From: a virus
DNA length: 33,610 bases
IMG/VR virus record: IMGVR_UViG_3300025132_000150
Location: 1-33,610 of that record
Reading direction: 5' to 3' (one strand)
In this document: positions 1,947 to 12,676 of the stretch, piece after piece
Numbering within the stretch: position 1 is the stretch's first letter
Layout of the letters: each line of letters starts with the position of its first letter
The notes under the pieces: generated by a model
Databases searched by the model: none
What the model was told of the DNA's origin: nothing
The model's input: the letters and a program-made list of their open reading frames with translations, nothing else
Translations under genes and position numbers: made by a program

Positions 1947-2016
1947 GGCAATGCATCTAATGCCGCCCGAGCCTGACTTGCCTTTGGATAGCAGCCGTGA
2001 TCTGGATGGGGCATAA

Positions 2017-2036
2017 GCCGAGGGCAGTTCCTCGGC
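2017..2036 (+). promoter_or_regulatory. Hairpin just upstream of the first early gene's RBS
   Basis: GCCGAGG (2017-2023) pairs with CCTCGGC (2030-2036) around a 6-nt loop, ending about 6 nt before the ribosome site AGGAGAAC. It would cap the 5' leader of the first early gene and could affect stability or translation. It is not followed by a T run. Confidence 0.5.
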
Positions 2037-2055
2037 AGACAACAGGAGAACTAAG

Positions 2056-2445
2056 ATGACCAAGACAGTGAAAAACAACCTCGTAGCTGACATTCAGCGT
2101 GACCATGTTCTGACAAATCGAACAGTATACAGTCAACTCAATTATGAGTTCAGCAGGTTCATTAACAGTCTCAACTATTCAATCAGTAAGAAACTGGAAA
2201 AGATAGAGGAGATTGACCAAATCGTACAGGATGGACACACGTTCAACCAAGAAACTGGATCACAGATCGAACCAGACTGGGTTAAACTTGCAAATGACCG
2301 TCAGTGGAACGAGAACCAAATGGAGGTATCACAAAGACTACTCGACTACTTTGAGGAAGCTAACAGCAAACTCTTTGTAGACACTGAGGAAAAAGCACGA
2401 TCACAAGCAGAAGCATTTGAAGCACTGCAAAAGAAGATCGCTTAA
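2056..2445 (+). CDS. Hypothetical early protein (129 aa)
   Basis: The first early gene, with an excellent extended ribosome site (AGGAGAACTAAG directly before ATG). The protein is soluble, charged and almost entirely helical, with likely coiled-coil stretches (residues 40-60 and 90-128), and rich in Asn/Gln/Glu. I do not recognise a family. It is isolated as its own unit: the structured control region stands before it and a strong intrinsic terminator follows within 11 nt. This layout suggests an abundantly made early protein, perhaps host-directed; that is inference. Confidence 0.75.
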   Translation: MTKTVKNNLVADIQRDHVLTNRTVYSQLNYEFSRFINSLNYSISKKLEKIEEIDQIVQDGHTFNQETGSQIEPDWVKLANDRQWNENQMEVSQRLLDYFEEANSKLFVDTEEKARSQAEAFEALQKKIA

Positions 2446-2455
2446 CCCAAACATC

Positions 2456-2487
2456 AGCCTCACTGCTTCGGCAGTGGGGCTTTTTTT
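2456..2487 (+). terminator. Intrinsic terminator after the first early gene
   Basis: An 11-bp stem, AGCCTCACTGC with GCAGTGGGGCT (one G-T pair), closed by a TTCG tetraloop at 2467-2470 and followed by a run of seven T (2481-2487). This is a textbook rho-independent terminator on the + strand. Confidence 0.93.
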
Positions 2488-2593
2488 ATGGTCGCTCACA
2501 TGGCACACACACATCCCCAGCAAGCCGCCCCGCGAGGGGGCTGAAGATATAAAGCTGAAGCTGCTTCAGCAAATCCACAAGGAGATTTTAATT

Positions 2594-2764
2594 ATGAAAT
2601 CTACAATTGATATTGTTTTAATTTCAACGCTAGGATTTTTATTAATCCTAGCAGGATTCGATAACATTCAAAGAGGATACACACCCTATTGGGCGTTCTT
2701 ATTATGCGCCGCAGGTCTATTCATTATATGGTGGCCTCACGTTTGCAATCTATCTGATGATTAG
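2594..2764 (+). CDS. Small two-helix membrane protein (56 aa)
   Basis: The open frame extends upstream through the terminator, but the real start is the ATG at 2594, which has AAGGAG 7 nt before it. The 56-residue product has two hydrophobic segments, about residues 5-22 (IVLISTLGFLLILAGF) and 34-50 (YWAFLLCAAGLFIIWW), joined by a short polar loop and ending in Asp-Asp. I recognise no family. It could be an inner-membrane protein acting on the host early in infection. The leader contains two stem-loops (2523-2542 with a GCGA-type loop and 2554-2570 with arms GCTGAAG/CTTCAGC). Confidence 0.65.
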   Translation: MKSTIDIVLISTLGFLLILAGFDNIQRGYTPYWAFLLCAAGLFIIWWPHVCNLSDD

Positions 2765-2767
2765 GTG

Positions 2768-2808
2768 TTGCAATCTGATACACCTAGTATATACTGCAAG
2801 TATGCAGT
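2768..2808 (+). promoter_or_regulatory. Promoter with perfect 16-bp operator dyad
   Basis: The -35 TTGCAA (2768-2773) and -10 TATACT (2790-2795) are 16 bp apart. The palindrome ACTGCA-AGTA-TGCAGT (2793-2808) covers the end of the -10 and the predicted start site, the classic place for a repressor operator. The same half-sites recur at 7319-7334. It should drive the genes from 2822 onward, and is probably the target of one of the phage's own HTH regulators (5198 or 5358). Confidence 0.7.
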
Positions 2809-2821
2809 AAGGAGAACTAAC

Positions 2822-2938
2822 ATGCGTATCACAACATACAGAAAATTCTATTTAGTACCACGCTATTTCGGTACTGATCGTGGGTTCACCCTCAAATGGT
2901 TGGGCCTTGTCTTCCACTATCGTAACTCAAGATTCTAA
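2822..2938 (+). CDS. Small hypothetical protein (38 aa)
   Basis: A short gene with a near-perfect ribosome site (AAGGAGAACTAAC then ATG). The product is basic and aromatic-rich (TTYRKFYLVPRYFGTD, then a hydrophobic FTLKWLGLVF, ending in HYRNSRF). It is the first gene after the operator-bearing promoter, and the next gene's own ribosome site begins right at its stop. I do not recognise it. The strong RBS and tight packing support it as real; it may act as a leader peptide for the DUF932 gene. Confidence 0.6.
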   Translation: MRITTYRKFYLVPRYFGTDRGFTLKWLGLVFHYRNSRF

Positions 2939-2951
2939 AGGAGAACTAACT

Positions 2952-3830
2952 ATGGATGGAGTAACAGTTATAGGTAACAACCTAGTAGAAGATTGCTGGT
3001 CTTTCCCAGTAGAGACACGCAGCTTACTTGTAAAAAATGGTACATTTATATCTGAATCAATACCAGTGCCAGAGTCAATGGCTCGTTGCATTGTACGCAC
3101 TGATACTAATGATGTGCTTGGTGTGCATGGTTCTAAATACAAAGCAATCAAGCATGATGATGTAGTCAATTCAGTTATGGATGCTGTTAAACAAGCAGAC
3201 ATATCTAAAGATTACGACACAAAGATTGAAGTGTTTGACAATGGCGCAAAGCTGCGCGGCATCATTGACTTCAATGATATAACAGTCGAGCCATCAGTAG
3301 GTGACTACATTAAATTCAGATTACAATTTTTCAACTCATACGATAGTAGCTGGGCATTCCAACAGCAAGCATTCGGCTGTCGTTTGTGGTGTGACAATGG
3401 TTGCTGGGATGCTGACACTGTAGCTAATACATGGGCAAAGCATACAACCAATGTCAACGTAGAAGGTAGCGCATCCAAGATACAAGCTGGCCTTGAGGCA
3501 TTTCTAAATACGCCTGAGAAATACAAGGCATGGATGGCAACACCTGTTGACGATGATCTAGCTGAAAGCTTTTTCAAGAACACAGTCTGCCGTGTACCTA
3601 ACAAGACAAGCACATTCAAATGGAATGAGAAGCAGCTTGAAAGACTAATGGGTTATTGGTTTGCAGACAAAGCCAAGCTCGGCAATAACAAATGGGCATT
3701 GTATAATGCTCTAACATATTGGGCTAGTCACACAGACGAATCCAATTCACCAGCTAATACGCAAAGACTACGAGAGAATCAGCTATCTAAAATATTCAAG
3801 TTCAGTAGCTGGCATGCACTAACATCATAA
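2952..3830 (+). CDS. DUF932 family phage/plasmid-like protein (292 aa)
   Basis: Matches the general pattern of the DUF932 (phage/plasmid-like TIGR03299-type) family. The N-terminal part reads DTNDVLGVHGSKYKAIKHDD, where family members have a similar segment ending in Y..I.; a mid-section KLRGIIDFNDITVEPSVGDY is followed by a long C-terminal helical part. Members are usually 250-400 residues and sit in early regions of phages and plasmids. Their biochemical role is not established. I start at the ATG at 2952, with AAAGGAGAACTAACT before it, not at the upstream in-frame ATG at 2880 that overlaps the 38-aa gene. Confidence 0.75.
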   Translation: MDGVTVIGNNLVEDCWSFPVETRSLLVKNGTFISESIPVPESMARCIVRTDTNDVLGVHGSKYKAIKHDDVVNSVMDAVKQADISKDYDTKIEVFDNGAKLRGIIDFNDITVEPSVGDYIKFRLQFFNSYDSSWAFQQQAFGCRLWCDNGCWDADTVANTWAKHTTNVNVEGSASKIQAGLEAFLNTPEKYKAWMATPVDDDLAESFFKNTVCRVPNKTSTFKWNEKQLERLMGYWFADKAKLGNNKWALYNALTYWASHTDESNSPANTQRLRENQLSKIFKFSSWHALTS

Positions 3831-3848
3831 CAACAAGGAGAACTGACC

Positions 3849-4058
3849 ATGAAGATGGCATTCATAACACAAGCTAAAGATATACAACGCAACCTTCACG
3901 CTTTGCATGAACGAGCAAAAGCAGATGACTCTCAGTTTTTGTATGTAATACAGCAAGCTGTTTGGAATATTGACAAGGTTGTTAACACTTATGATGAGGT
4001 GATTCTTCGTGACACAAATGAAGAAGAAAGCTATCGCCCACCATTAAAGGAGGTATGA
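3849..4058 (+). CDS. Hypothetical early protein (69 aa)
   Basis: Ribosome site AAGGAGAACTGACC precedes the ATG. The 69-residue product is helical, with alternating hydrophobic positions (FITQAKDIQRNLHALHERAK, then FLYVIQQAVWNIDKVVNTYD), and ends acidic then basic. It probably forms a small helical bundle. It lies 18 bp after the DUF932 gene, and its stop codon is embedded in the next gene's start region (TATGATAATG). No family recognised. Confidence 0.7.
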   Translation: MKMAFITQAKDIQRNLHALHERAKADDSQFLYVIQQAVWNIDKVVNTYDEVILRDTNEEESYRPPLKEV

Positions 4059-4060
4059 TA

Positions 4061-4267
4061 ATGTCACTAATGCAACAGAGACATTTTGAATATCTTGCAG
4101 ACAAGGTAGCACCATTGCTACCTTGGCCTTCATCCATACTAGAAATGGCTGAACGCCTTGCAGATACAAACCCACGATTCAATAAGGATAAGTTCATCTC
4201 AAGAGCTACTGCTGCTTGGGAAGAAGCTCATCCTATGGAGCCATTAAACGATGATATTCCGTACTGA
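4061..4267 (+). CDS. Hypothetical early protein (68 aa)
   Basis: The start at 4061 is preferred over the ATG at 4055 because the strong site AAAGGAGG ends 7 nt before it. The protein reads MSLMQQRHFEYLADKVAPLL, then WPSSILEMAERLADTNPRFN and KFISRATAAWEEAH. It resembles small phage proteins built around a FxxLA..ia.....R..FD...F..A......, of unknown role. It overlaps the following Cys-rich gene by 17 nt. Confidence 0.7.
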   Translation: MSLMQQRHFEYLADKVAPLLPWPSSILEMAERLADTNPRFNKDKFISRATAAWEEAHPMEPLNDDIPY

Positions 4268-4559
4268 TATAAGAGGCAGACGCACTATTGAAGAATATTT
4301 AGAATGCAAAGAATGCAACAATCAAATGTTTTCTGAAGTCGATTGTTGCACTCATTGCAAGAGTGACGATCTAAAATGGATGACGCAATACACAGTCTAC
4401 AAGGTTGTGTTTGCCGAAGATGAAGGTGACGCTGTTGAAACTGCGTTAGATATGATGACTGATTTTGAAACAGCAAGTGGAAAAATTATCATTACAAATG
4501 AACAAGATTGTAAAACCCCTGTCATAGATACAGGCAAATTCATAGGAGAACTACAATGA
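4251..4559 (+). CDS. Cys-rich small protein, putative zinc ribbon (102 aa)
   Basis: Contains CKECNNQMFSEVDCCTHC (residues about 19-36), two CxxC-like pairs that could bind one zinc ion. A sheet-rich second half follows (YTVYKVVFAEDEGDAVETAL, then KIIITNEQDC). Zinc ribbons of this kind usually bind nucleic acid or protein partners; the specific role is unknown. It starts inside the preceding gene and overlaps the next one by ATGA (4556-4559), so it is translated as part of a tight cluster. Confidence 0.7.
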   Translation: MIFRTDIRGRRTIEEYLECKECNNQMFSEVDCCTHCKSDDLKWMTQYTVYKVVFAEDEGDAVETALDMMTDFETASGKIIITNEQDCKTPVIDTGKFIGELQ

Positions 4560-4915
4560 ATGTTATCGAAAGAGGCAAACAAATAGCCGATGATCTATTC
4601 GACACACCAGCATTTAAGCTAGCTCGTAGCGGTGATCCAAGCACCAGCCATGATGCTGCCGATGCACTTGATGTTAATCGCATGGAGAAAAAAGTTTATT
4701 ACGCTATCTGTACATTTACTGAGGATGGCTGCATCATGGATGATGTATTGGATAGGCTAGATCATCTTAGATACAGCACAGTTACAGCTAGATTCGCAGC
4801 CTTAAAAGAAAAAGGTTTAGTAATTAGTGACCACCGCAAAAGAAAAGGTAAGTCTGGTAGAGGTCAGTTTGTAATGTGGGGTAAAGATTTTTATAAGGAA
4901 GAAGACAATGGGTAA
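4556..4915 (+). CDS. Winged-helix DNA-binding protein (119 aa)
   Basis: The N-terminal part DPSTSHDAADALD (residues 27-39) is a motif seen in many phage small DNA-binding proteins. Residues 43-92 look like a winged helix: MEKKVYYAIC helix, DDVLDRLDHLRYSTVTARFA helix-turn-helix, LKEKGLVISD second helix and wing, with a basic tip RKRKGKSGRGQF. It could regulate phage or host promoters or help replication. The RBS is AGGAGAACTACA before the ATG. It overlaps neighbours at both ends. Confidence 0.75.
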   Translation: MNVIERGKQIADDLFDTPAFKLARSGDPSTSHDAADALDVNRMEKKVYYAICTFTEDGCIMDDVLDRLDHLRYSTVTARFAALKEKGLVISDHRKRKGKSGRGQFVMWGKDFYKEEDNG

Positions 4916-5156
4916 ATCAAAGTACCGACGCGAATCAGACAGACCTTTAGCTTCTATGTGGTATCATCATAATCTTAAACTAGAAAAGGAGAAGAAAGCT
5001 TGGCAGGGGATCAACGAAAATCTACCTGCCAACGCTTTCGCTGATGATGTAACTGTTGAAGAAGTAGGTACTTACAAGCCTTTACCTACATTAGTTTTAG
5101 GTGGTTACTCTGCATTAGGAGAATATGAAAAAGAAACACAGGACTTTGGACGATAA
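4908..5156 (+). CDS. Hypothetical early protein (82 aa)
   Basis: A basic N-terminal part (MGKSKYRRESDRPLASMWYH) with a helical segment is followed by an acidic, extended C-terminus. The RBS is a purine-rich AAGGAAGAAGAC before the ATG, which lies inside the end of the winged-helix gene. No family recognised. The gene ends 5 bp before the -35 of the promoter at 5162. Confidence 0.65.
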   Translation: MGKSKYRRESDRPLASMWYHHNLKLEKEKKAWQGINENLPANAFADDVTVEEVGTYKPLPTLVLGGYSALGEYEKETQDFGR

Positions 5157-5161
5157 CACCA

Positions 5162-5191
5162 TTGACATAGGTGCAATCTTGCAAGCATATT
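5162..5191 (+). promoter_or_regulatory. Candidate promoter for HTH genes; predicted leaderless
   Basis: A perfect -35 TTGACA (5162-5167) and a -10 CATATT (5186-5191, 4 of 6 matches) are 18 bp apart. A degenerate operator with core TGCA-ATCT-TGCA (5172-5183) lies between them. The expected transcript start, 6-7 nt after the -10, falls on or next to the ATG at 5198, which has no Shine-Dalgarno sequence. This is the arrangement of a leaderless, autoregulated repressor message. Confidence 0.45.
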
Positions 5192-5197
5192 GTTTGC

Positions 5198-5392
5198 ATG
5201 ATTACATACATGGAACAATTAGTAGATAAATCAGCGCACTTACAAATCAAATTAAAGGATGCTTTTGCTTGTGCTGGGGTGCCTGATTCTACATTTTATC
5301 GTGCAAGAATGGGTAAAGATTTGCGCTACGATACAGCTAATAAAGTAAGCGAAGCCATTGAAAAACTTTCAGCACTACAAAGTAGAGACTGA
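5198..5392 (+). CDS. Small HTH regulator, putative repressor (64 aa)
   Basis: The segment LKDAFACAGVPDSTFYRARM and following GKDLRYDTANKVSEAIEKL form a short HTH with the XRE/resolvase-like pattern: a turn at AGVPDST, a recognition helix TFYRARMG, and an amphipathic last helix. An ATG at 5198 or 5210 is the start; neither has a ribosome site, consistent with a leaderless message from the promoter just upstream. The longer open frame back to 5171 lies within the promoter and is rejected. Being small and next to a second HTH gene, it resembles a Cro/CI-type control pair, but no lysogeny genes are present. Confidence 0.6.
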   Translation: MITYMEQLVDKSAHLQIKLKDAFACAGVPDSTFYRARMGKDLRYDTANKVSEAIEKLSALQSRD

Positions 5393-5612
5393 GGTTACTG
5401 ATACATATCAAGATGTTATCAGTCAGCTTGTCACTCATAGGACAAAACAAAAGCTGACTCAAAAACATTTAGCTTACAAGATTGGATGTGCCGAATCTTT
5501 AATACATAAATGGGAGCAGCATAAGCGAGTACCATCTGGATTTTTATTCGCATGTTGGTTAGATGCACTTGGCCTTACGATCAAAGTCTATAAAAAAAAG
5601 ACTCTACGATAA
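5358..5612 (+). CDS. XRE-family HTH transcriptional regulator (84 aa)
   Basis: Classic Cro/CI-type HTH in residues about 20-70: ISQLVTHRTKQKLTQKHLAY, then KIGCAESLIHKWEQHKRVPS and a final helix FLFACWLDALGL. The TQKHLAYKIGC turn and the SLIHKWEQ recognition helix are the family's key elements. It starts with TTG at 5358 inside the previous HTH gene (35-nt overlap); no better in-frame ATG exists before the HTH. It is a candidate binder of the TGCA-N4-TGCA operators at 2793, 5172 and 7319. Confidence 0.75.
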   Translation: MKNFQHYKVETEVTDTYQDVISQLVTHRTKQKLTQKHLAYKIGCAESLIHKWEQHKRVPSGFLFACWLDALGLTIKVYKKKTLR

Positions 5613-5898
5613 AGTAGGTGCATCATATCCATGTGATGCTTGCGGAAATAAAACTCCTTGGTTTGTATGCATATTAGCTACAGAAAAACCAACAACCTAT
5701 CATACAATTTGTATTGATTGTTACGAGGCAGAAACATGGCAAGCAAAAGTCGCGCAAAAGGAGACTACCACGAAAGATCATTCGTCAAATGGCTACAGAA
5801 ACTTGGCTTCAAGGCGAAGAGGCAACCTCTCAGTGGAGCGTTGGGAGGCGAATATACAGGAGACATCTTATGGAGAATCAAAGAAGCCACGTTGGTAG
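5563..5898 (+). CDS. Putative zinc-binding protein overlapping the resolvase gene (111 aa)
   Basis: Residues 24-54 hold two CxxC pairs: YPCDACGNKTPWFVC and then TYHTICIDCYEAETW. This pattern looks like a real zinc-binding unit. The frame then stays open for about 160 nt over the start of the Hjc-like gene, where its translation looks random, so the C-terminal half may be only a by-product of the overlap. The first ATG (5563) lies inside the XRE gene and has no clear RBS; the start is uncertain. Function unknown. Confidence 0.45.
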   Translation: MHLALRSKSIKKRLYDKVGASYPCDACGNKTPWFVCILATEKPTTYHTICIDCYEAETWQAKVAQKETTTKDHSSNGYRNLASRRRGNLSVERWEANIQETSYGESKKPRW

Positions 5899-6107
5899 TC
5901 GAAGTAAAGTACAGAAATAAATCAAACTTCCCTAATCCTTTTACTGTAGTTAGAGACGTATTGTTTTACAAACGCAGAGAAGGAAAACCTAAAACACTTA
6001 TCATCTTTGATGGTGATGTCTTTGAAGAAAAGATAGCACCATTATTGCAGGAGAACTACAATGGCATTCTTACTAATGGCGAGGGCAATCAAGTCAGAGA
6101 TACCTGA
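5736..6107 (+). CDS. Hjc-like Holliday junction resolvase / PD-(D/E)XK nuclease (123 aa)
   Basis: The layout fits archaeal-Hjc-type and phage resolvases: KGDYHERSFVKWLQKLGF with catalytic Glu13, GALGGEYTGDI with Asp43, and LVVEVKYR with the E-x-K pair Glu57/Lys59. It would cut branched DNA during recombination-based replication or before packaging. The ATG at 5736 fits the conserved start (MASKSRAKGD); the upstream in-frame ATG at 5718 adds six non-conserved residues. It overlaps the replication initiator gene by 47 nt, placing it with the replication genes. Confidence 0.75.
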   Translation: MASKSRAKGDYHERSFVKWLQKLGFKAKRQPLSGALGGEYTGDILWRIKEATLVVEVKYRNKSNFPNPFTVVRDVLFYKRREGKPKTLIIFDGDVFEEKIAPLLQENYNGILTNGEGNQVRDT

Positions 6108-6723
6108 CTGCTATGCTAAATGGTTAATGGTTGTGCTTGCAGATCATGCAGATGAAGACAAGCACCTATGCTGGCCTAGTCTTAGCCGACTATCACAACG
6201 TACTGCTATGTCTGTAGCTACAGTAACGCGCAAGCTGCACTGGCTGGAAGATCACGGCTATCTAACTAGAGATCGTGGACACACAGGCAAGTCAACACGA
6301 TATATAATATTCCCAAAGGATGTTGCACACTGCAACAAACCTATTGCAGACAGCAACACCCCTGTTGCAGACAGCAACACTAACCTATCAATAACCAATA
6401 AAGAACCAAAGAAACAAAAGGGTCAGGTTCCAGATGACTGGTTCCCAAGTGATGACCTTTGCAAATCTATTGATGCCAAGCACAAGGAGAACATAGATCA
6501 TGTCACTCAAGCAGATAAGTTCATTAACTACCATCAAGCAACAGGCAAAAAGTTTGCGTCCTTCGACAGAGCCTACAGATACTGGTGTTCAAATCACATT
6601 GAGTGGAGAGCAAACGCAAGCAGGTCTGGATCGAATGCTGCAAGTAAACAATCCAGCCAAGGTAGACAAGCTGCTTCTCACTTCGCTAGAATGCACAACA
6701 GGCTGCAAGGTAGTAGAGATTAG
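6061..6723 (+). CDS. Replication initiator-like protein, winged helix (lambda O-like; 220 aa)
   Basis: Residues 14-84 form a winged helix of the phage replication-protein type: IPDCYAKWLMVVLADHADED, then CWPSLSRLSQRTAMSVATVT (HTH), RKLHWLEDHGYLTRDRG and a wing. A polar linker (residues 92-120) contains the repeated peptide IADSNT/VADSNT. A C-terminal domain follows (VPDDWFPSDDL, then FINYHQATGKKFASFDRAYR and YWCSNHIEW) of the type ending many phage initiators. The RBS is CAGGAGAACTACA. The linker codons make three 21-bp iterons, so the protein probably binds its own gene as lambda O does. No helicase loader of known type is obvious besides the next gene. Confidence 0.8.
   Translation: MAFLLMARAIKSEIPDCYAKWLMVVLADHADEDKHLCWPSLSRLSQRTAMSVATVTRKLHWLEDHGYLTRDRGHTGKSTRYIIFPKDVAHCNKPIADSNTPVADSNTNLSITNKEPKKQKGQVPDDWFPSDDLCKSIDAKHKENIDHVTQADKFINYHQATGKKFASFDRAYRYWCSNHIEWRANASRSGSNAASKQSSQGRQAASHFARMHNRLQGSRD
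6322..6378 (+). repeat. Three 21-bp iterons inside the initiator gene, candidate origin
   Basis: Three dyads of form GTTGC-N5-GCAAC lie exactly 21 bp apart: GTTGC-ACACT-GCAAC at 6322-6336, ATTGC-AGACA-GCAAC at 6343-6357, and GTTGC-AGACA-GCAAC at 6364-6378. A-T-rich stretches flank both sides (about 6299-6312 and 6381-6415). The layout matches lambdoid origins, where iterons sit inside the initiator gene next to an A-T-rich region. Confidence 0.65.
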
Positions 6724-7126
6724 CCGCAGTAGCTTCAAGGATGATGGTGTAGATATTATTGTCAGTGGCTATAGAATAGAATCGACATCGCTTGATGCTA
6801 TTAACAAATGTATAGCTACAGTTATGCAAGCCATGGTTCCAATGCCAAAAGAAATGCTAGTCGATGACCTCACCCTGCTGGCTGCGCTGGTGGTAAAGCC
6901 AGCAGGGGAGTCATCGGACGATCATGCAATGCGGATACAAGCTATAGCTAACGAACTATCAGCTTACCCAGCCGACATCGTTAAGTATGCAATCAAGCAG
7001 GTGTCTGAGACTACTACTTTCTGGCCCGCATACTCAGAGTTTCACAAGCATATCAAGTGGAGACTAAGACGTAGAGAGCTAATGCTTTCATCACTACAAC
7101 AAAAGAAAATTGCACTAGGAGATTAA
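6635..7126 (+). CDS. Replication-region hypothetical protein (163 aa)
   Basis: The open frame begins at 6500, but its first 45 residues are just another frame of the initiator's C-terminal domain. I favour the ATG at 6635, though the start is uncertain and one at 6742 is also possible. The recognisable part is the C-terminal helical region (LSAYPADIVKYAIKQVSETT, then FWPAYSEFHKHIKWRLRRRE). This is similar in style to phage proteins encoded just after the initiator, where a W.P...EL......RR helix is typical. A role as helicase loader or replication accessory is inference from position. Confidence 0.6.
   Translation: MLQVNNPAKVDKLLLTSLECTTGCKVVEISRSSFKDDGVDIIVSGYRIESTSLDAINKCIATVMQAMVPMPKEMLVDDLTLLAALVVKPAGESSDDHAMRIQAIANELSAYPADIVKYAIKQVSETTTFWPAYSEFHKHIKWRLRRRELMLSSLQQKKIALGD
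6862..6916. repeat. Long imperfect inverted repeat within the replication gene
   Basis: CGATGAC (6862-6868) pairs with GTCATCG (6910-6916), and CCCTGCTGGCT (6873-6883) pairs with AGCCAGCAGGG (6897-6907). The total is 18 bp of stem with a small internal loop and a 13-nt apical loop. It is much stronger than expected inside a coding sequence. It could be part of the origin, an RNA structure affecting the operon, or a recombination hotspot. Confidence 0.55.
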
Positions 7127-7128
7127 TC

Positions 7129-7314
7129 ATGGACAGTCAATTATGTGACCAGCTAATTGGCATTCTGCAAGAAATAAAAGAAACCAATCACATAATGGAA
7201 ATGGATAACCCATACGAAAATCCAGACTTTGAAAAAAATTGGTATCGACCAGCCGAAAAACAAAAATATCATTTGATGGATAAACTTATCGAAATGATTA
7301 AGAAAGAAGCTTGA
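7129..7314 (+). CDS. Hypothetical protein (61 aa)
   Basis: RBS AGGAGATTAATC precedes the ATG. The 61-residue product is acidic and helical (QLCDQLIGILQEIKETNHIM, then EKQKYHLMDKLIEMIKKEA), with a likely coiled coil or small helical bundle. It is the last gene before the second operator-bearing promoter; its stop codon lies inside the -35 element. No family recognised. Confidence 0.65.
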   Translation: MDSQLCDQLIGILQEIKETNHIMEMDNPYENPDFEKNWYRPAEKQKYHLMDKLIEMIKKEA

Positions 7315-7339
7315 CCTAACTGCATAGTTGCAGTAGTAT
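7311..7339 (+). promoter_or_regulatory. Promoter of the recombination operon, with operator
   Basis: The -35 TTGACC (7311-7316) and -10 TAGTAT (7334-7339) are 17 bp apart, close to the sigma-70 consensus. The perfect dyad ACTGCA-TAGT-TGCAGT (7319-7334) fills the spacer, so a bound repressor would block polymerase. Both half-sites are identical to those at 2793-2808, while the central 4 bp differ, as expected for a true dimer-binding operator. The predicted transcript start is near 7345. Confidence 0.75.
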
Positions 7340-7344
7340 TAAAA

Positions 7345-7420
7345 GGTAAGTGGCGGCTCGTTCGGGACTGTTGCATTCCGCAGTGTTTGCATTAGTGGAT
7401 ACCTTCGCGTCACTTACACC
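7345..7420 (+). ncRNA. Structured 5' leader before the recombination genes
   Basis: The predicted transcript begins GGTAAGTG. GTAAGTG (7346-7352) pairs perfectly with CACTTAC (7411-7417), enclosing 58 nt. The stem can be extended by GCG (7353-7355) with CGC (7406-7408) across a 2-nt bulge. Inside, CGGGA (7363-7367) can pair with TTCCG (7376-7380, one G-T pair), or GCGG (7353-7356) with CCGC (7378-7381) as an alternative. AGTG (7394-7397) can compete for CACT (7411-7414). It ends about 10 nt before AAAAGGAGAACTACTATG. No known riboswitch class is recognised. Confidence 0.5.
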
Positions 7421-7438
7421 ATTAAAAGGAGAACTACT

Positions 7439-8260
7439 ATGAACAGACTAGGATTTCTAGGCGGCTCAGATATGAACCGCATCATGCGAGGCGAATGGAT
7501 TGCCTTGTGGGAAGAGAAGACAGGCAAGGCAGAGCCTACTGATCTCTCAAATGTTTTAGCAGTACAGCTAGGTATAAACACCGAACACTTTAACAAGCGT
7601 TGGTTTGGTCAGCAATACAGTTCTGAGGATTCAGAAACTATTGTCGCTGCTCACAAAGGTCAAGGCTGGGGTGTTACAACAGAAATGAATTGGGAAGGTG
7701 TACCTCTCAAAGGAACTGTAGATGGTCATATCTTAGTAGACAGAAGGTTTACTGACGAGATCATTGAGTGCAAGCATACATACGAAACAAACAGTATGGA
7801 AAATTGTTTGGCTTTGTACATGCCACAGATGCAATTCTATATGTGGTTGCATCAAGCTAAAGGCTGCTATCTATCTGTAATCTTTGGCAACCGCAAGTGG
7901 GCTGCTGTATATGTACAGAAAGATTGGGACTACATCAACAAGATGAAGGTACACATCACCGAGTTTTGGAGGCATGTCACTGAGGACACCCGCCCTTTCG
8001 GTGACAACGAAGTACCACCTGTATCTATAGATAAGATCAAAGTCGATGGCATGACTAAGCGTGACGCATCAGCAGACAATGAATTTATGAGCAGATGCCA
8101 TGACTACATTGCTTACAAAGATTCAGCAAAATTATTTGAGTCAGCCAAATCTGATCTTAGGGATATGGTTGGTGACGATGAGCGAGAAGTATACTGTGAT
8201 CTTCTTGCCATCAAACGCGATAAGCGCGGATCATTACGCATCACAGTAAAGGAGAACTAG
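7439..8260 (+). CDS. YqaJ-type recombinase / lambda exonuclease-like nuclease (273 aa)
   Basis: A PD-(D/E)XK nuclease of the YqaJ viral recombinase group, which digests one strand of double-stranded DNA ends for strand annealing. Visible motifs are GFLGGSD (residues 5-11), GTVDGH with Asp95, EIIECKHTY with Glu110 and Lys112, and YMPQMQFYMW, where Gln130 matches the family's downstream Q. At 273 residues it is close to the usual length (about 200-300). The RBS is AAAGGAGAACTACT. It is followed after one base by a putative annealing protein, the expected Red-like exonuclease-plus-annealing pair, and driven by the promoter at 7311. Confidence 0.85.
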   Translation: MNRLGFLGGSDMNRIMRGEWIALWEEKTGKAEPTDLSNVLAVQLGINTEHFNKRWFGQQYSSEDSETIVAAHKGQGWGVTTEMNWEGVPLKGTVDGHILVDRRFTDEIIECKHTYETNSMENCLALYMPQMQFYMWLHQAKGCYLSVIFGNRKWAAVYVQKDWDYINKMKVHITEFWRHVTEDTRPFGDNEVPPVSIDKIKVDGMTKRDASADNEFMSRCHDYIAYKDSAKLFESAKSDLRDMVGDDEREVYCDLLAIKRDKRGSLRITVKEN

Positions 8261-8261
8261 A

Positions 8262-8720
8262 ATGTCTAAAGACAAACTTGAGTTATGGAACAAGGTATCA
8301 AAGTCTGATCCCAAGTTTCTAAAGAAGGTATCGTTTGGATCACGCTCATTTACAGCTATTGATCCACAGTATCAGGTCAGAGCAGCAACAGAACAGTTTG
8401 GTACGATAGGCCACGGCTGGGGATGGAGCAACGAAACACGCTTCATCAATGTATCGAATGGAGACACTGCTGTTATAGCTGATGTAACTATATGGACAGG
8501 ATCGCCTAGCAATTCATTCGGGCCTTTCTCTGGATGCAGAAAGTTTTTTGATTCTGCTAAAGGTAGAATGGCAGAGGATGCACCCAAGATGGCGATCACT
8601 GATGGTCTTACAAAAGCCCTATCCCACTTAGGATTCAATGCAGATGTATTCCTTGGTGAGATGGATGGCAACAAATATGCAGCCGATTCAAAGGCTGGTA
8701 AAAATACAGGAGGCTGGTAA
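8262..8720 (+). CDS. Putative single-strand annealing protein, Rad52/ERF-like (152 aa)
   Basis: The pattern LELWNKVSKSDPKFLKKV, then FTAIDPQYQVRAATEQFGTI, GHGWGW and DAPKMAITDGLTKALSHLGF is that of a phage family usually found beside YqaJ-like nucleases. The last segment, with Asp-Ala..A.TD...KA.S.LGF, resembles the C-terminal core of ERF/Rad52-like annealing proteins. It would coat single strands made by the nuclease and anneal them to homologous DNA. RBS AAAGGAGAACTAGA. The function is inferred from family resemblance and context. The stop overlaps the next start in TAATG. Confidence 0.7.
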   Translation: MSKDKLELWNKVSKSDPKFLKKVSFGSRSFTAIDPQYQVRAATEQFGTIGHGWGWSNETRFINVSNGDTAVIADVTIWTGSPSNSFGPFSGCRKFFDSAKGRMAEDAPKMAITDGLTKALSHLGFNADVFLGEMDGNKYAADSKAGKNTGGW

Positions 8721-8941
8721 TGGATAACAATTATAAAATTGAGCATGATGTACCTATGCCCCGCGAAATGACAGGGCATAGTTCAAAATACAGTGTATTA
8801 AAACACATGGAGAAAGGAGACAGTTTTATTATTGGCAGTGGCTTTGTTGCTTCTTTAAGACAAGCCGCAAGAAAATGGGATATAAAAATTGTTACAAGAA
8901 AAGAAAACAATATGTCCCATAGAATATGGAGAGCAAACTAA
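8720..8941 (+). CDS. Small phage protein (73 aa), DUF7303-like
   Basis: The pattern PMPREMTGHSSKYSVLKHME, then KGDSFIIG, SLRQAARKWDIKIVTRKE and HRIWRAN is that of a small phage family (Y....MP......YP...M..GDSF......... A......FT.R....G..VWR). These are widespread in phages, of unknown role, and often near recombination or SSB genes. It is joined by TAATG overlaps on both sides (8719-8723 and 8939-8943). Confidence 0.7.
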   Translation: MDNNYKIEHDVPMPREMTGHSSKYSVLKHMEKGDSFIIGSGFVASLRQAARKWDIKIVTRKENNMSHRIWRAN

Positions 8942-9066
8942 TGTTTTCTTCAAAGTTTGTTTTGCACTTAGAGGAAATAAAAATAAGACTCACCAACTTA
9001 GAACATAAGGTAGAAAAATTATTATGGCTCTTACAAGAGAGTAAGGAAAAGGAGAACAAAAAATGA
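8941..9066 (+). CDS. Short coiled-coil protein (41 aa)
   Basis: A 41-residue frame starting in a TAATG overlap with the previous gene, with GGAGAGCAAACTA just upstream, and ending in an ATGA overlap with the SSB-like gene. The product has a regular hydrophobic heptad pattern (FVLHLEEIKIRLTNLEHKVE, then KLLWLLQESKEK), so a dimeric or trimeric coiled coil is likely. The overlaps and RBS support it as a real gene. Function unknown. Confidence 0.6.
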   Translation: MFSSKFVLHLEEIKIRLTNLEHKVEKLLWLLQESKEKENKK

Positions 9067-9479
9067 CTGAGTATGATAACACTAACAGAGGCGCAGCTTT
9101 CAAACCCTTTCCAGAGCAACAGCTTATACTACAAGGCAAGCTCAATATCATGGGAGAGGATGGGCAAGTCGCGCTTATCATGGCTGAATCCAGAGATGGA
9201 AACAAACGCATTGAGGTCTTTCAAAAGATAGGATGCTTGTTCCCTAATGATAAAAAGGGTAATGAAAAAGCACCTGATTACAGTGGGCCGCTTGATGGAT
9301 TGCACCAAGATTGGAAGATTGCTTCTTGGAAAGAGATGAAAGACGATAAAGCTTACATGTCTTTACAAGTATCAGAGTACAAGGCAAAGCCAATAGACGA
9401 TGAGATACCTGAGTTTGGTGATAATCTAAAAGATGAAGAAAAAACTAGCGCAGAACCAAATGAAGATGTACCATTCTGA
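9063..9479 (+). CDS. Putative single-stranded DNA-binding protein (138 aa)
   Basis: The N-terminal two-thirds look sheet-rich (AAFKPFPEQQLILQGKLNIM, then QVALIMAES and RIEVFQKIGCLFPN), followed by WKEMKDDKAYMSLQVSEYK. A long acidic tail then ends in Glu-Asp-Val-Pro-Phe. An acidic tail with a terminal D-[IV]-P-F-like tip is the hallmark of SSB proteins, which use it to recruit partners. No canonical OB-fold signature can be read by eye, so the SSB call rests mainly on the tail and the location after the exonuclease and annealing genes. RBS AAAGGAGAACAAAAA. Confidence 0.55.
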   Translation: MTEYDNTNRGAAFKPFPEQQLILQGKLNIMGEDGQVALIMAESRDGNKRIEVFQKIGCLFPNDKKGNEKAPDYSGPLDGLHQDWKIASWKEMKDDKAYMSLQVSEYKAKPIDDEIPEFGDNLKDEEKTSAEPNEDVPF

Positions 9480-9550
9480 GGCAAGTTGATTAGTTCTCCG
9501 CTTGCCTCAAAGGGTGGGTCAGCCGTTTATGGGTTTTTCGGCTGGCCCAC
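9478..9550. terminator. Double hairpin between convergent operons
   Basis: Hairpin 1 has arms GAGGCAAG (9478-9485) and CTTGCCTC (9501-9508). Hairpin 2 has arms GTGGGTCAGCCG (9514-9525) and CGGCTGGCCCAC (9539-9550) with a single G-T mismatch pair. They sit exactly between the last early gene and the last late gene. Neither has a clean T tail, so they may act as a two-sided block with some readthrough, or protect 3' ends. Confidence 0.7.
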
Positions 9551-9997
9551 TTACACTATCAATCCTTTACGATACCCATTTTTCTTATCGTAAGTAAGGG
9601 ATTCTTTTCTATTACCCTCTGGCTTGTAGCTACAGTGTATCCAACCACTGTTGCCGCCAGTGTAACACTCTAATATTAACTGATCGAAATCAAGGTTGTC
9701 CTGTATCCACATAGCCAACCCATAGTTATCTACACCAGCAACTTCAAAGTCAGCCGCTTCACCCTTTGCATGCTGGCTGTGGATATTTGAACCTATGGCA
9801 ACACAAAGCTCACCACTGCGGAAACCTGACGATACAAGAAATGGCCCATGCTCATTACGAATAGGTTGCAATATATTTTCACACAACAATTTCATAGACT
9901 CTATTTGACTATCATCAGGTGTATTAGGTATCCCTTTACGCTCTGCTGTCTGGCTTTTTACCATTTCATCTAAAGAAAAATTTTCTGACAACTTCAT
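9551..9997 (-). CDS. Endolysin: M15-family zinc peptidase (148 aa)
   Basis: A peptidoglycan peptidase of the M15 (D-Ala-D-Ala carboxypeptidase-like) group. It reads KLSENFSLDEMVKSQTAERK, then VSSGFRSGELCVAIGS, then SQHAKGEAADFEV with zinc ligands His76 and Asp83, and GWIHCSY with His121. It would cut cell-wall peptide cross-links to release progeny. It has no signal peptide, so it depends on the holin encoded upstream. I start at the ATG at 9997, which overlaps the holin stop by ATGA. The upstream extension to 10069 is holin sequence in another frame. It is the last gene of the late operon. Confidence 0.85.
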   Translation of the reverse strand: MKLSENFSLDEMVKSQTAERKGIPNTPDDSQIESMKLLCENILQPIRNEHGPFLVSSGFRSGELCVAIGSNIHSQHAKGEAADFEVAGVDNYGLAMWIQDNLDFDQLILECYTGGNSGWIHCSYKPEGNRKESLTYDKKNGYRKGLIV

Positions 9998-11573: not shown

Positions 11574-12676
11574 CAAGCTACTGTTCCACTTATTGTACCA
11601 GTATTGTTCATAGTTACTGATGTACCAGATACGGCTGCACCAGCAGCACCCGCAGCACCGCCGCCAGCACCCGCAGCACCATTACCGTAATTTCCATTTG
11701 CACCAGCAGAGCCAGCAGAACCAGCTTGTCCAGCCGTGGCCCAAGCACCGCCATTCCCACCTGCCCCGCCAGTGCCGCCAGCACCAGAATTATTACTGCC
11801 ACTAGCACCAGCCGATCCAGCACTGCCAGTACCAGCCGCTTGATTATAACCTTGCCCTACAGCAGGTGTGCCACCTGCTCCACCAGCCCCACCTGATGAG
11901 TAAGCAGTGCTGCCTATACCTAGTTGATAGCCATATTGACAGGAGCCTCCATATTGCGCACCACCGCCTTTATAATAATTACCATATTGAGTTGTAGTGT
12001 TAGGTATTGGTCTACCGAAAGACCCACCATAGATAATTCCGCAATCGCCCGGGGTGCCGCATGTATCATAGCACCACCACGACCGAGAACCATGTCCATA
12101 AGCGTAGTTAACAACTGTGTATGAACCTTGGCCACCTGTCCCACCTGTCCCGCCGATTCCGCCGCCTCCGCCACCGCCACGGATTTCACCAGTATTGTTT
12201 ATGGTTACACCTGATGATTGATTATAAACTGCAACCCTGCCATCTCCGCCGTTGGCTACGCCGCCAGCACCATAAATATTACCAGCGTTGTTGATTGTCA
12301 GACCACCAGCTAATCCTGATGGGATAGTAAAAGCCTCAGAACTAACACCGCCAATAGTTACACCTGAATTAATAGCAACAATTTTAGGATAGTTAACATC
12401 CCAGTCATCACCAAACAAAGTATTCGCAACTACATTTGTTGTGGTGCTGCTAATGGTATTCTTAAATCCTTTAGCTGTGCTATAAAAATCTTGTAAATCA
12501 ATTACGCCTGATGTTGGTACAGAGGCAGCTAAATTAACTGCGGGATTATCACCAGCCTTTGACAAAATGTTAGAACCGCCACGGTATAAATCACCCAAGC
12601 TAATTGCTGACGAGCCGCCAACAAACTCAGTCCTTAAATCACTAAACGATACTGCACCACTCGCTGCTATAGCCAT
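11573..12676 (-). CDS. Glycine-rich tail adhesin / receptor-binding protein (367 aa)
   Basis: The N-terminus AIAASGAVSFSDLRTEFVGG, SSAISLGDLYRGG is an attachment domain found at the start of many marine phage tail proteins. After a sheet-like middle (residues 70-165), the protein turns into Gly/Ala/Ser-rich blocks (about 168-180 and 260-350), such as AGGTGGAGGNGGAW. Between them lies an aromatic, Cys-containing stretch (RSWWCYDTCGTPGDC, then GGSCQYGY). Polyglycine helices with variable aromatic loops are how T4-type gp38 adhesins contact receptors, so this is the likely host-range tip. It ends with a short non-Gly tail (SGTSVTMNNTGTISGTVA). Coupled by TAATG to the gene before it. Confidence 0.75.
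   Translation of the reverse strand: MAIAASGAVSFSDLRTEFVGGSSAISLGDLYRGGSNILSKAGDNPAVNLAASVPTSGVIDLQDFYSTAKGFKNTISSTTTNVVANTLFGDDWDVNYPKIVAINSGVTIGGVSSEAFTIPSGLAGGLTINNAGNIYGAGGVANGGDGRVAVYNQSSGVTINNTGEIRGGGGGGGIGGTGGTGGQGSYTVVNYAYGHGSRSWWCYDTCGTPGDCGIIYGGSFGRPIPNTTTQYGNYYKGGGAQYGGSCQYGYQLGIGSTAYSSGGAGGAGGTPAVGQGYNQAAGTGSAGSAGASGSNNSGAGGTGGAGGNGGAWATAGQAGSAGSAGANGNYGNGAAGAGGGAAGAAGAAVSGTSVTMNNTGTISGTVA

Follow-up and report, generated by a model that had tools for sequence, protein, structure and literature searches.

A 16-bp dyad as the probable operator of a small helix-turn-helix protein at three promoters of uncultured phages

The phage genome recorded as IMGVR_UViG_3300025132_000150, a complete IMG/VR virus record whose 33,610 bases constitute the window analysed here, carries a palindromic dyad of the form ACTGC-N6-GCAGT at its early and recombination promoters, and a weaker copy at the promoter of the gene for a small helix-turn-helix (HTH) protein that we designate HTHa. 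This dyad is very probably the binding site for the phage's own small regulatory protein, kept before the same three gene sets in many uncultured phages. Judging from the distribution of the dyads and of the HTHa gene, we consider it highly probable that the dyads are HTHa operators and that an HTHa dimer represses the early promoter, the recombination promoter and, more weakly, its own promoter. Regulator, operator sequence and three target promoters would together form a complete and testable transcription circuit, and the operator combined with HTHa offers a DNA signature by which members of this lineage could be picked from metagenomes.

Dyads at three promoters in the window and in related phages

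An earlier note on this DNA had described perfect dyads with identical half-sites in two promoters, and both copies are exact: operator OE (ACTGCAAGTATGCAGT) occupies positions 2793-2808 and operator OR (ACTGCATAGTTGCAGT) positions 7319-7334, with no strand assigned to either. The placement that it proposed is borne out by the promoter positions. OE overlaps the -10 element and the start region of the early promoter (TTGCAA-16-TATACT, 2768-2795, plus strand) and stops just 5′ of an AAGGAG ribosome-binding site, while OR fills the spacer of the recombination promoter (TTGACC-17-TAGTAT, 7311-7339, plus strand), where it is kept before the gene for a YqaJ-type exonuclease. A weak copy, OH (GGTGCAATCTTGCAAG, 5170-5185, likewise without strand), lies in the HTHa promoter (TTGACA-18-CATATT, or with a 17-bp spacer to GCATAT; 5162-5191, plus strand), upstream of the start codon at 5198. 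Its core, TGCAATCTTGCA, which the same note had singled out as a core-only relative in the promoter of the HTH genes, is exact at 5172-5183, and the same place in relatives holds ACTGC-N6-GCAGA or the like. All three sites fall within intergenic gaps (2765-2821, 5157-5197 and 7315-7438). The three promoters are sigma-70-like in sequence; the region has no excess of promoter-like matches as a class (15 against an expected 17.8).

An abundance of equal dyads in coding DNA would have counted against an operator, and none of equal quality was found elsewhere on either strand of the window, where the next best match, at 12228, carries two mismatches and the remaining eight matches to the full dyad carry three each. 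In all, 11 matches with at most three mismatches were observed, against 24.4 expected from shuffles. Among the 17 perfect 6-4-6 dyads in the window, ACTGCA is the only half-site that occurs twice; 10 of 300 Markov simulations also contained a repeated half-site, a frequency of about 3% that is to be read as post hoc. The bare core TGCA-N4-TGCA occurs about as often as expected by chance (3 observed, 2.4 expected). The window-only statistics are modest, and the third site is not provable from the window alone. Because the core occurs at chance level and the repeated half-site is a post hoc result, the third site, and the case as a whole, rest on related phages.

Relatives were collected by a search with the YqaJ-like protein, which gave 90 IMG/VR loci (80 retained), by an HTHa alignment (A1, 17 sequences), which matched 324 viral stretches (80 retained), and by two further YqaJ searches that contributed additional divergent loci. 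The site before YqaJ was counted as RCTGC-N6-GCAGY within 500 bp in non-redundant loci with at least 3.5 kb 5′ of YqaJ, with 71 loci that have less set aside. A dyad, one-mismatch copies included, occurs 5′ of YqaJ in 59 of the 65 non-redundant loci that encode HTHa, in most relatives at about -41 and with varying flanking promoter bases. The early promoter has a site with at most one mismatch in 34 of the 49 non-redundant HTHa loci for which 3.6 kb or more of upstream sequence is available; the copies, among them ACTGCAAGTATGCAGT, ACTGCAAGTACGCAGT and ACTGCATATATGCAGT, lie directly 5′ of the ribosome-binding site. Where the window has its 5172 core, relatives carry TTGACA-NNN-ACTGC-N6-GCAGA or a similar sequence, and a site within 120 bp upstream of HTHa (RCTGC-N6-GCAGY with at most one mismatch) is found in 24 of 33 HTHa clusters, cut at 85% identity, compared with 136 of the 6,600 stretches that served as controls in the same loci. 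The dyad search in related phages that the earlier note had called for thus reveals sites recurring at orthologous promoters, and the regulon that it predicted, comprising the early operon, the recombination operon and a weaker self-regulation, recurs at orthologous places.

HTHa as the candidate regulator

Two overlapping HTH genes on the plus strand could encode the protein that recognizes these sites. HTHa (5198-5392, 64 amino acids), the likely regulator, has an HTH formed by helices at residues 19-25 and 30-37, and HTHb (5358-5612, 84 amino acids) is an XRE-type HTH protein. Among loci with both genes (n = 65), the YqaJ site is perfect in 55, has one mismatch in 4 and is absent from 6. 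Where HTHb is present alone (n = 11) the site is perfect in 1 and absent from 10, and where neither gene is found (n = 14) it is perfect in none, has one mismatch in 2 and is absent from 12. Loci with HTHa therefore carry the operator in 59 of 65 cases, as against 1 of 11 for those with HTHb only. A complementary search began from the DNA: 68 IMG/VR stretches match the promoter-operator pattern TTGANNNNACTGC-N6-GCAGTANNAT, YqaJ lies within 600 nt in 61 of them, and HTHa is encoded in all 38 of the YqaJ-adjoining contigs with at least 2.6 kb upstream. HTHa was found in none of the seven pattern-matching stretches without YqaJ, five of which are copies of one coding sequence. Because there is much overlap between these contigs and those of the protein searches, this result serves as an ascertainment check and not as an independent sample.

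The distribution of the sites favours HTHa, the product of the gene at 5198, over HTHb, the product of the gene at 5358, as the putative regulator. HTHb, acting alone or in a mixed complex with HTHa, is nonetheless a natural candidate for binding the dyads, being a clear XRE/HTH protein that is encoded directly behind and overlapping HTHa and is found in nearly all of these phages. Against this, the dyad before YqaJ is missing from 10 of the 11 loci that have HTHb without HTHa, and locus L056, a single case, has HTHa and sites at both YqaJ and HTHa in the absence of HTHb. HTHb was rejected as the regulator on this co-occurrence and appears dispensable for operator retention; its participation in binding seems to us improbable.

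A host regulator, such as a LexA-type SOS repressor, might also be thought to control these promoters. The gammaproteobacterial SOS box is a 16-bp ACTG-N8-CAGT dyad, the half-site outline of which resembles the operator described here, and a recombination operon would be a plausible SOS target. The site, however, tracks a phage gene, with HTHa present in 38 of 38 testable contigs, and related phages without HTHa mostly lack the dyad, as the YqaJ-site counts indicate. At the fifth position the window's two sites have C/G where the SOS box has T/A, a difference that adds little in relatives because the counting pattern required that base. We judge control by such a host protein to be very unlikely.

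HTHa belongs to a family described by none of the libraries searched. The window protein matched 0 Pfam families, including HTH_3 and relatives, the profiles of the Lambda Cro/CI-type family, and the 17 aligned members gave one chance match (Tudor, E 0.21). Comparison with PHROG yielded nothing better than E 0.017 for any of the 17 members, no sequence match to PDB chains was obtained up to E 1, and tblastn with two divergent members against 50,697 phage records found no HTHa-bearing relative of the lineage below E 1e-5. The AlphaFold2 model has four helices (pLDDT 93.7) and looks lambda-repressor-like, with 434 Cro, DdrO, HipB and similar proteins as its Foldseek and VIA neighbours, at weak scores. 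The putative recognition helix reads ST[FY]YR in every one of the 33 clusters. For HTHb, the matches to HTH_31/HTH_3 fall below the curated cut-offs, and there are sequence matches to P22 C2, HigA and HipB chains.

Positions 2000-9600 of the window gave no blastn match among named phages, and an exact 34-base search in IMG/VR also gave none. Of the isolates, Pelagibacter phage Hodr (OQ414635) is the closest by protein. HTHa was not detected in it, its examined stretches contain no dyad of this kind, and its GC content is 0.33, as compared with 0.37-0.46 for phages with HTHa. The sole genome_contigs match is a contig of an 'Opitutae' metagenome-assembled genome, which may be a binning artefact. 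A literature search found no paper on this operator or regulator, although a search of open-access texts cannot prove absence. Circuits of this type are known; regulator family and operator are both new to every library searched.

Several observations weigh against the assignment of the dyads to HTHa or against parts of it. The loci share ancestry, so the counts are not independent events. An early site with at most one mismatch is lacking in 15 of the 49 loci, of which five (L011, L020, L023, L053 and L060) have a two-mismatch copy. No YqaJ site is present in six of the 65 HTHa loci (L199, L201, L203, L209, L227 and L228), although in several of these the HTHa promoter has retained one, and in L230, where HTHa was not detected, a perfect site lies 306 nt upstream of YqaJ. 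The structural matches of the model are weak (Foldseek E 0.22 at best; 434 Cro at a TM score of about 0.6 and E 0.24; best VIA Z 6.8). Finally, the self-site is weaker than the best YqaJ-upstream match in the same phage in 27 of the 33 clusters, equal in 2 and stronger in 4, and its defect lies mostly in the half adjoining the -10 element, the second base of which is the last base of the operator. Because the weak half overlaps the HTHa -10, this weakness may be forced by the promoter and not selected for low affinity. In L209 and its relatives the order is reversed, with a perfect HTHa site and a YqaJ site that has lost one half.

A predicted lytic feedback circuit

From the sites, the promoter positions, their conservation and the co-occurrence with HTHa, all of which are read directly from the sequence, we infer the binding, dimerization, repression, affinity order and leaderless mRNA of the following scheme. 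An HTHa dimer would bind ACTGC-N6-GCAGT and block RNA polymerase at the promoters of the early operon (2768-2795) and the recombination operon (7311-7339) and, more weakly, at its own promoter (5162-5191). All three promoters would be active after infection; HTHa, translated from a probably leaderless mRNA, would build up and turn down the early and recombination operons, with its weaker own operator setting its level. The outcome would be a Cro-like timer working by negative feedback in phages in which no integrase is visible. Repression is proposed in preference to activation because the operators lie either on the -10 element or between the -35 and -10 elements of promoters with a 17-bp spacer. 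The HTHa message is probably leaderless, since in the window's clade the start codon lies about 6-7 nt past the -10 element and a Shine-Dalgarno-like sequence is nearly always missing. In locus L008 (1903-1918) and 13 further loci, another perfect dyad, ACTGATACATATCAGT, is located just 3′ of the HTHa stop codon, inside HTHb.

At the early promoter the dyad lies in or at the transcript start, directly 5′ of AAGGAG, so that it could be read as an RNA hairpin beside the ribosome-binding site and not as a DNA operator. The YqaJ and HTHa promoter copies, however, occur in the spacer between -35 and -10, 5′ of the transcript, and there is very little probability that a hairpin accounts for the dyad.

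A more serious alternative is that HTHa acts not as a lytic-cycle timer, but as a CI-like repressor for prophage maintenance in a temperate phage. In lambda, the OL/OR logic places operators at early, recombination and self promoters, an arrangement mirrored here, and the recombination operon begins right at the operator in this phage and its relatives. With its 64 amino acids, on the other hand, HTHa has no room for a cleavable C-terminal domain. A tyrosine integrase (PF00589) was found neither in the window nor in any of 22 related viral records of 30-37 kb, in a search that did not extend to serine recombinases or plasmid-style maintenance. With no integrase in evidence, the Cro-like lytic timer is the more probable reading, and we regard a lysogeny repressor as unlikely.

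The proposed circuit resembles the lambda CI/Cro system with OR and OL in employing a small protein whose model resembles the lambda-repressor fold, and in using a single palindromic operator for the promoters of the early genes, the recombination genes and the regulator itself. In lambda, the cI message transcribed from PRM is leaderless, as is predicted for the regulator mRNA in this clade. The two systems differ in that each promoter here has one operator, whereas lambda has three, and in that no integrase was found, HTHa has no sequence match in the PDB, and a second HTH gene overlaps that of HTHa. Proteins of the 434 Cro, P22 c2 and HipB type are neighbours of HTHa by model, and of HTHb by sequence (P22 C2, HigA and HipB), but none has a significant sequence match to HTHa, and the HTHa operator sequence is distinct. 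Cro of telomere phage PY54 is a lytic repressor that binds a 16-bp palindrome, with leaderless mRNAs transcribed from strong promoters, features shared by the predicted HTHa circuit; PY54 Cro differs in that it binds a single site, is reported not to repress its own synthesis, and has a CI partner in a temperate phage (PMC4488713).

Early -35 dyad, origin iterons and leader elements

A second dyad is positioned on the -35 element of the early promoter (2767-2781, no strand assigned), where GTTGCAATCTGATAC is a half-decayed copy of GTTGC-N5-GCAAC. The intact form is found on the -35 of many relatives' early promoters, 26-27 nt 5′ of OE. The dyad recurs with a 21-bp period inside the gene for an O-like replication initiation protein (HTH_36; 6061-6723, plus strand), forming three origin-type iterons within 6322-6378 (6322-6336, 6343-6357 and 6364-6378, without strand). 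Among 31 distinct early promoters, iterons and -35 dyad are both present in 21 and both absent from 10, with no mixed cases. Iterons inside an O-like gene are a feature of lambda-type origins; lambda iterons lie inside gene O beside an AT-rich stretch (PMC3349717), and the arrangement here is alike in this respect and in its O-like HTH replication protein. It differs in having three repeats spaced by 21 bp versus the four 18-bp iterons of lambda, and in that an iteron-like dyad also lies on the early promoter of many relatives.

Because iterons and -35 dyad co-occur in 21 of 21 cases and are absent together in 10 of 10, we put forward, as a tentative extension that is somewhat less probable than not, that the early promoter is a composite switch, with O on the iteron-like -35 dyad and HTHa on the -10, such that replication and regulator build-up together would shut off early transcription; in this reading HTHa would also found an undescribed regulator family in a large uncultured lineage without lysogeny genes. 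The weaker self-site and the iteron-like early dyad render the lytic timing of early, recombination and replication genes testable.

Variant iterons, GTCTC-N5-GAGAC, occur at the same place and with the same 21-bp period in L027 (8178-8219) and L105 (4123-4164), adjoining a CCTAACCTATCA-like stretch that is also seen behind the window's iterons; the early promoter of L027 has no such dyad. In Hodr (L083, OQ414635, 15431-15958), an HTHb-like domain is fused in front of an O-like C-terminal part; this record is named EXVC031P Hodr, but its locus tags read EXVC032PBaldr.

The early operon opens on the plus strand (2822-3830) with a small open reading frame (ORF; 2822-2938) and a DUF932 protein (2952-3830; PF06067, E 8.4e-16). 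The recombination operon (7439-9479, plus strand) encodes the YqaJ-type exonuclease (7439-8260) and an exonuclease-labelled phrog_7838 protein (8262-8720), followed by genes at 8720-8941 and 9063-9479.

Outside the operator, the YqaJ leader contains a structured RNA element of about 84 nt (7341-7424, plus strand), with the consensus GGCTCGTTC[AG]GGACTGT ... TTAGTG ... ACCT. Its closing stem covaries, with both-sided changes in 10 of 17 predicted pairs, and a comparison with Rfam gave no match at the gathering score (best 12.8 bits). A model of the element finds 29 copies in the 74 sources searched, by far not all of them independent. Most close relatives lack the element; in others it precedes YqaJ, and in other phages it stands in front of unrelated short ORFs. 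Other inserts separate the operator-promoter from the YqaJ start in L016 and L079 (139 nt before YqaJ) and in L076, L098 and L029/L032/L078, as if the YqaJ leader were a slot for exchangeable cassettes. In L080, L081 and L082, which have no HTHa, a different YqaJ promoter region carries TGCTGATAGCA, possibly the operator of another regulator.

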